Shown: positions 27,555-32,250 of the stretch, piece by piece
How positions within the stretch are numbered: the first letter of the stretch is position 1
Layout: every line of letters begins with the position of its first letter
Source of the DNA: an uncultured marine group III euryarchaeote
GTDB taxonomy: Archaea; Thermoplasmatota; Poseidoniia; MGIII; CG-Epi1
NCBI GenBank assembly: GCA_902531985.1
Contig: CACAGG010000004.1
Span: 1 to 47,672, forward strand
Direction: 5' to 3'
DNA length: 47,672 nt
Program-made: the position numbers and the translations under genes
The notes under the pieces: model-generated
Databases searched by the model: none
What the model saw: the letters and a program-made list of their open reading frames with translations, nothing else
What the model was told of the DNA's origin: nothing

Positions 27555-27587
27555 TAACTTTTTAATCAAGCTATTTTGGTTACTAAT

Positions 27588-28322
27588 ATGCAGAAGTTAT
27601 TAGTCATGGCTATCATGCTGGTTTTGGCTACTCCAGGATGTTTAGATAGTTTTAGGGAAAGTTTAGTTTCCTGTGACAATATTAATGGCGGATGCAGATA
27701 TGAAATCTTAAGAGGTAATGAGTATTCACGATTGCATATTGAAGTTAATTATGTTACAGGTAATTCTCCAGATTCTGATGCCTTAAATTTACTTAAGCAA
27801 AGAATTAAAGAAGTTACAGACAAATCAACAGTTACAGTTAGTCAGAGTAGTTTTGGCAGTACAGATAATAGTTACACATTAGAAGAAATTTTAGCTTTAG
27901 AGTCTAGCGAAAGGACTGAATTCAAAAGCGGAAATACTTTTGTTGTCCACATTTTGTATCTCAATGGAGAGTACAGTGATAATAATCAAGCACTTGGTAT
28001 AGCCTATTCAGGTACTTCCTTTGTTTTATTTAAGGAAAAGATAGAAGATGCAGCATTTTTACTTATTTCCTCTAAGGATATTGAAAAGGCAGTAATTGTC
28101 CATGAATTTGGCCATTTGCTCGGTCTTGTAAATAATGGATACCAATCTCCACATGACCATGAGGATCCCGACCATCCCCATCATTCTAATAATGAGGAAT
28201 CAGTCATGTATTGGGCCATAGAAAGTCAGGACATAGCTAATCAACTAGATGGTGAACCACCCAATAATTTTGACAGTTATGATCTTGATGACTTAAGTTT
28301 AATGAAACAAGGCAAATTATAG
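27588..28322 (+). CDS. Lipoprotein zinc metalloprotease, metzincin-like
   Basis: Lipobox-like LVLATPGC after an N-terminal hydrophobic segment; HEFGHLLGLVNNGY zincin motif; SVMYW Met-turn-like. ATG at 27588 is in frame with listed TTG 27576. Confidence 0.7.
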   Translation: MQKLLVMAIMLVLATPGCLDSFRESLVSCDNINGGCRYEILRGNEYSRLHIEVNYVTGNSPDSDALNLLKQRIKEVTDKSTVTVSQSSFGSTDNSYTLEEILALESSERTEFKSGNTFVVHILYLNGEYSDNNQALGIAYSGTSFVLFKEKIEDAAFLLISSKDIEKAVIVHEFGHLLGLVNNGYQSPHDHEDPDHPHHSNNEESVMYWAIESQDIANQLDGEPPNNFDSYDLDDLSLMKQGKL

Positions 28323-28323
28323 G

Positions 28324-28452
28324 CTAAAATTTCATTTTACTTATTCGTTTTTTGATTATTTTCCTCTTACGAGGTGTAGAATTAGGTTCGAATGTGACCC
28401 ACCCGGTGCCTTTTTGCGTACATTTAGGTTCTTCAGAATAGTCTGCGGCCAT
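28324..28452 (-). CDS. Small 42-aa protein, unannotated in the ORF track (MAADYSEEPKCTQKGTGWVTFEPNSTPRKRKIIKKRISKMKF)
   Basis: ATG at 28452 to TAG at 28324-28326 on minus strand; TATATAAA on minus strand (plus 28478-28485) about 29 nt upstream of the ATG; stop 1 bp from the convergent 27588-28322 gene; acidic/polar N-terminus and basic tail. Confidence 0.6.
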   Translation of the reverse strand: MAADYSEEPKCTQKGTGWVTFEPNSTPRKRKIIKKRISKMKF

Positions 28453-28477
28453 TATATTTGGCGCGGAGCAAGGCTGC

Positions 28478-28485
28478 TTTATATA
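28478..28485 (-). promoter_or_regulatory. TATA box for the 42-aa small gene
   Basis: TATATAAA on minus strand, centred about 29 nt upstream of the ATG at 28452. Confidence 0.55.
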
Positions 28486-28508
28486 GCTATGTTCGATAAA
28501 AAAGTTTT

Positions 28509-28804
28509 GTCAGGTGATGGGAGTAAGCCCCTTTCTGTTAACCATAATTGGTTGGCGACATTTAGCTACGCTTCCTACCTACCGCTCCCGAGCAGGTCGC
28601 TGCGGTTACTTGGAATTGCTCCAGCAGGGATGTTCGTTTCACCAAATCCTCCATCGACGTCACGTCCTAGACGATCATTCCATAAGATGGGTCTGTGTCG
28701 TTTCTGTTTCAGTGCCGACCCTCTCGGGCCCCTTACGGCTGCTTCGCTCATGGAGAGGGGACTTTCCTCAGCCTAAGACCGTCGGTCGCCCTCCATCTCC
28801 TGAC
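28509..28804 (-). ncRNA. rnpB: RNase P RNA
   Basis: Minus strand contains GAGGAAAGTCC (plus 28759-28769), ACTGAAACAGAAAC, GGTGAAACG, and ACAGAAAGGGGCTTAC (plus 28523-28538). Ends form a P1 helix: GTCAGGAGATGG (5') with CCATCACCTGAC (3'), 12 bp with one mismatch. Confidence 0.93.
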
Positions 28805-31932: not shown

Positions 31933-32250
31933 GTGGTAAAAAGACGCGGCCGTAGAACAAAAAATCAGGAAAAAATCGCAAGGGAGAGAATTGAATTGTT
32001 GCTAGACTTAGCTTTAAAGAGTTCTAGGGAAGGAAGTTCTGGTCAGTCACAAAGATTTGTTGAGTTAGCTTTATTGATAAGTAAAAGGTATAATCAGCGC
32101 TTAACTAAATCTCAGAGGCTTAAAATATGCCGGGATTGTAATAATTATTTTACATCCAATAATTCAAGAAATAGGCAGTCTTCAAAAGGGTGGAAAATTA
32201 TCACATGTTTAGACTGTGGTTCAGTTTCAAGGCATGTTGTAGAACCTTAG
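31933..32250 (+). CDS. rnp4: Ribonuclease P protein component 4 (Rpp21/Rpr2 family)
   Basis: KNQEKIARERIELLLDLA...RYNQRLTKSQRLKICRDCNNYFTSNNSRNRQ...ITCLDCGSVSRHV: archaeal Rpp21-type zinc ribbon. Confidence 0.9.
   Translation: MVKRRGRRTKNQEKIARERIELLLDLALKSSREGSSGQSQRFVELALLISKRYNQRLTKSQRLKICRDCNNYFTSNNSRNRQSSKGWKIITCLDCGSVSRHVVEP

Follow-up and report, generated by a model that had tools for sequence, protein, structure and literature searches.

Small basic proteins of the archaeal ribosome include eL39, eL41 and the archaea-specific small subunits. The protein subunits of archaeal RNase P are POP5, RPP30, RPP21, RPP29 and L7Ae (PMC4919922). In some archaea many mRNAs are leaderless; in Haloferax volcanii leaderless mRNAs account for 72% of the coding transcripts (PMC4983044). 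For marine euryarchaea, a primary transcriptome from the Red Sea gives RNase P RNAs as transcripts of 292–306 nt (PMC5069720). Here we describe a short open reading frame that directly follows the RNase P RNA gene (rnpB) of an uncultured Marine Group III archaeon and compare it with these systems. The features that we refer to lie in a window of 47,672 nucleotides, which is the whole stretch of DNA that was analysed:

27576-28322, plus strand: convergent predicted metalloprotease gene
28324..28452, minus strand: gene for the 42-aa protein of an apparent orphan family in Marine Group III archaea (ORF, homologues, purifying selection), called the small gene below
28327..28374, minus strand: codons 27–42, basic tail (alignment; tail pN/pS 0.60)
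28387..28452, minus strand: codons 1–22, conserved acidic N-terminal segment (alignment; pN/pS 0.18 over codons 2–21)
28409..28422, minus strand: TGYACGCAAAAAGG, codons 11–15, containing the frozen ACG CAA AAA (14 same-genus genomes)
28478..28485, minus strand: TATA box TATATAAA, beginning 33 nt before the A of the ATG and centred at about -29
28512..28801, minus strand: RNase P RNA (rnpB), directly upstream of the small gene (Rfam RF00373)
31933..32250, plus strand: Rpp21/Rpr2 RNase P protein gene (Pfam PF04032, E 3e-8), given as neighbourhood context only

The match of rnpB to RF00373 reaches 208 bits (E 1e-60), and 59 nt lie between rnpB and the ATG of the small gene on the same strand. On the other side the convergent gene ends with its stop at 28322, leaving a single base (28323) between both stops. 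The minus-strand ORF of 42 aa with its ATG start, which an earlier note on this DNA had placed 1 bp from the convergent gene, was recovered with the same coordinates and the same sequence. The convergent gene itself shows an HEFGH motif and a lipoprotein-like start, and its Pfam matches are sub-threshold only (Peptidase_M10, Reprolysin_3).

We propose, with a probability of about 0.5 for the statement as a whole, that the locus carries a genuine orphan gene for a protein of roughly 5 kDa, independently transcribed and probably leaderless, and that this protein has an accessory role combining docking and RNA binding. On its own the protein would be largely unfolded; its conserved acidic and aromatic N-terminal segment would dock on a specific, conserved binding partner, and RNA would be bound by the basic tail, for which a helix is predicted. 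Because of the position of the gene, the likeliest setting might be tRNA maturation or translation, where the protein would assist either RNase P or the ribosome.

Coding status and promoter of the small gene

By its length alone the ORF is unremarkable, as 47 ORFs of 40–60 aa with an ATG start occur in the window. It stands above chance because its frame is conserved, because changes fall mostly on third positions and because there is no signal in the shifted frames. The frame is kept in 14/14 genomes of the same genus, and counting the distant homologue from a second genus (G015) all 15 frames are open. Over codons 2–21 of the 14 same-genus sequences we obtained a pS of 0.47 and a pN of 0.086, i.e. 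a pN/pS of 0.18, whereas the shifted frames of the same codons gave ratios of 1.29 and 1.14. Variable columns in this segment comprise 14 third positions versus five first and four second positions. With its ratio of 0.60 the basic tail is under looser constraint than the N-terminal segment.

The earlier note had claimed a real gene shorter than the length cut-off used for listing ORFs, to be judged by its homologues, by selection and by the presence of frame-breaking indels. Conservation in related archaeal genomes bears this claim out: 14 homologues were found in the same genus and one in another, all 15 keep the frame, and selection on codons 2–21 is purifying, with both shifted frames above 1.1. 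On the basis of these comparisons we regard the ORF as almost certainly a real protein-coding gene. A frameshift signal at CAAAAAGG was considered as well and rejected since neither of the shifted frames has a signature of coding. An example of a tryptic peptide predicted from the 42-aa protein is GTGWVTFEPNSTPR.

The gene had also been credited with its own TATA box about 29 nt before the ATG, a spacing expected of a leaderless transcript, and both points hold across the genus. TATATAAA begins at -33 in 9/9 species and a different A/T box, TTTTAAAT, is located at -34 in the other 5/5, while the rest of the spacer from rnpB to the TATA box differs between species in both sequence and length. 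A box at a fixed distance from the start codon, by which leaderless genes are recognised (about 25–30 nt), is therefore present in the 14 same-genus species. With this spacing transcription would begin at the ATG or right beside it, as in leaderless genes, and the small gene is probably transcribed independently into a leaderless mRNA. In G015 an GATAGCTATATA element at -56 is followed by GGAGG and then by the same conserved ATG; because of the box at this position and the GGAGG, a short leader is probable for the mRNA of this homologue.

That the small gene has a promoter of its own speaks against an RNase P operon transcribed as one unit. The transcript lengths of 292–306 nt for RNase P RNA likewise fit rnpB and the small gene as separate units, and the small gene finds no mention in the available part of the Red Sea paper (PMC5069720).

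Distribution and linkage to rnpB

Among the 21 family genomes searched, the small gene is present in 14/14 of its own genus (source genome included) and in 1/6 of a second genus (G015, 41% identity). The third genus, represented by one genome (G014), lacks it, so that the two sister genera together account for 1/7. A profile built from the 15 sequences gave the same distribution in the family as the first search, and in 293 genomes of the class and 390 of the phylum it detected no relative beyond Marine Group III. The hits outside this group were fragmentary (E 0.003–0.006 per genome, two with internal stops) and about as many as chance predicts.

For the protein and all 15 relatives a Pfam scan did not rise above noise (the best hit, SeqA with E 0.034, fell below the cut-off), with no sequence match to the POP5, RPP30, RPP21, RPP29 or L7Ae families. 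There was no match in NCBIfam and only noise in PHROGs, and a profile scan of phage records and viral contigs gave no relatives, in view of which the hits of a degenerate DNA pattern were set aside. Among the chain sequences of the PDB, where solved ribosomes and subunits of RNase P are represented, nothing matched the family profile at E up to 10; a relative among known ribosomal proteins was thus found neither there nor in NCBIfam or ribosomal Pfam. A literature search gave no description of the family, of its rnpB link or of the synonymous freeze described below. Judging from the collections searched, this appears to be a lineage-restricted orphan family, so far confined to Marine Group III archaea.

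In 15/15 genomes carrying the small gene it is the next gene 3' of rnpB and shares its strand, so that conserved linkage with rnpB, which had been put forward as a check, was indeed found. The gene beyond it differs: either a metallopeptidase gene follows directly or a short gene comes before it, and in G015 the neighbour is unrelated. By eye the short gene is VanZ-like; it separates the small gene from the metallopeptidase gene in some same-genus genomes (L003, L006–L014) and is absent in the window, L002, L004 and L005.

Counted over the family, 15/16 genomes with an identified rnpB have the small gene. In the exception, G014, a transporter gene (LysE-like by eye) comes within about 20 nt after rnpB and no small ORF was found there, which suggests that RNase P does not require the small gene across the family. 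Marine Group II genomes also have no such ORF after rnpB. For G016–G020 (genus g3, 64–81% complete), neither rnpB nor the small gene was found, with rnpB being searched by Infernal under strict and lax settings and by DNA similarity to the G015 copy. Rpp29 is present in the three tested genomes without an rnpB match (G017, G018, G020), and the missing rnpB in G016–G020 is probably the result of rearrangement plus incomplete assembly. In G017 an ATP-grasp-like gene (by eye) is found upstream of mcm, where rnpB would be. The distance between rnpB and the Rpp21 gene is 3.1 kb in the window and about 3–5 kb in other family members, and Rpp29 is encoded elsewhere in the genome. As RPP29 and RPP21 are both encoded elsewhere in the same genomes, the small protein replaces neither of them.

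Position beside rnpB could also be incidental, with the gene order being kept only because the genomes are close and streamlined, and to this alternative we assign somewhat less than an even chance. The small protein might then serve in another process and be, for instance, a DNA-binding, stress, membrane-surface or ribosome-bound protein. The mcm–rnpB side of the locus is likewise conserved without any functional relation, the small gene has its own promoter, G014 has rnpB and not the small gene, and the protein matches no RNase P subunit family. On the other hand, rnpB and the small gene have stayed together in 15/15 genomes although the gene beyond them has changed. For the docking and RNA-binding accessory protein that we prefer, RNase P or tRNA maturation is a reasonable first candidate because the gene is positioned by rnpB and near Rpp21. 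We nevertheless consider it unlikely that the protein would act on RNase P specifically, because of the separate promoter, the absence in G014 and the lack of similarity to known subunits.

The protein and its frozen codons

Ten residues are invariant in the 15 species (M1, A2, D4, E8, P9, C11, Q13, G15, W18 and F21). The protein is split by charge, with a pI of 4.6 for residues 1–22 versus 12.0 for residues 23–42, and the tail varies in sequence and length, yet it is basic in all 15 homologues. AlphaFold2 gave a mean pLDDT of 67 and a pTM of 0.22, with a low-confidence helix at residues 28–41 and an N-terminal half without structure. Of the composition described in the earlier note, the basic tail (pI 12 in the 42-aa protein) is confirmed in all 15 homologues, whereas the supposedly ordered TQKGTGWVTFEP is not, having a pLDDT of about 62–67. 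Only one conserved cysteine and no zinc-site pattern were seen in the alignment of the 15 homologues, and hence there is no recognisable RNA-binding domain. We put the chance that the small protein might bind RNA at about even.

A further peculiarity is seen at the codon level. E8 (GAA) and T12-Q13-K14 (ACG CAA AAA) are each encoded by one codon in 14/14 same-genus species, whereas synonymous sites elsewhere vary freely in the genus and the nearby T16 varies as well. In the adjacent mcm of the same genomes none of the invariant columns for these amino acids uses a single codon (Thr 0/22, Gln 0/7, Lys 0/7, Glu 0/13), and ACG is uncommon among the Thr codons of mcm (51/353). Single-codon columns make up 4/11 of the degenerate columns in the small gene versus 4/241 in mcm (Fisher P 1.3e-4, in a post hoc test that ignores phylogeny).

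These identical codons and the excess over mcm would be explained if the DNA or mRNA of codons 8–15 carried a second signal, i.e. a regulator site or an RNA element, such as a site for autoregulation by the protein or the target of another RNA. Such a signal would be compatible with our main explanation. We regard it as possible but doubtful: no covarying RNA structure was found at the small gene, the motif has no second copy within the window and is not conserved in the distant genus (G015), and the comparison with mcm is limited by being post hoc and blind to phylogeny. That the protein is a lineage-specific extra RNase P subunit or regulator whose own mRNA carries a frozen expression-tuning signal (GAACC..AA.TGYACGCAAAAAGG) seems quite improbable to us. 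Finally, the idea that the conserved stretch, instead of being a gene, extends the RNase P RNA at its 3' end or belongs to another non-coding RNA, which its place directly after rnpB and the nucleotide-level conservation of its core might suggest, can practically be dismissed, as codon-position variation appears in the ORF frame only, the region from rnpB to the TATA box varies in sequence and length, the Rfam match to RNase P RNA is full-length and stops short of the stretch and no conserved RNA structure is present.

Comparison with known systems

In summary, a well-supported and apparently undescribed small-protein family is added to an uncultured ocean lineage, and reading beside well-known RNA genes can recover real genes that fall under annotation length limits. 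Should the protein indeed bind RNase P, one of the oldest RNA enzymes would gain a new protein component. The synonymous freeze is a specific second question that is open to testing.

Like the archaeal RNase P subunits the protein is small, and its gene adjoins that of the RNase P RNA and lies 3 kb from RPP21; unlike them, however, it is far smaller with its 42 aa and shows no recognisable fold. With the small basic archaeal ribosomal proteins it shares a similar size, charge and a basic tail, but core ribosomal proteins have a wider distribution whereas this family occurs in one archaeal lineage only. The small gene also resembles lineage-restricted leaderless small-protein genes of archaea in its TATA-to-ATG spacing, its short ORF and the purifying selection acting on it, and it differs from those described in the papers searched by its link to rnpB and by the synonymous freeze.
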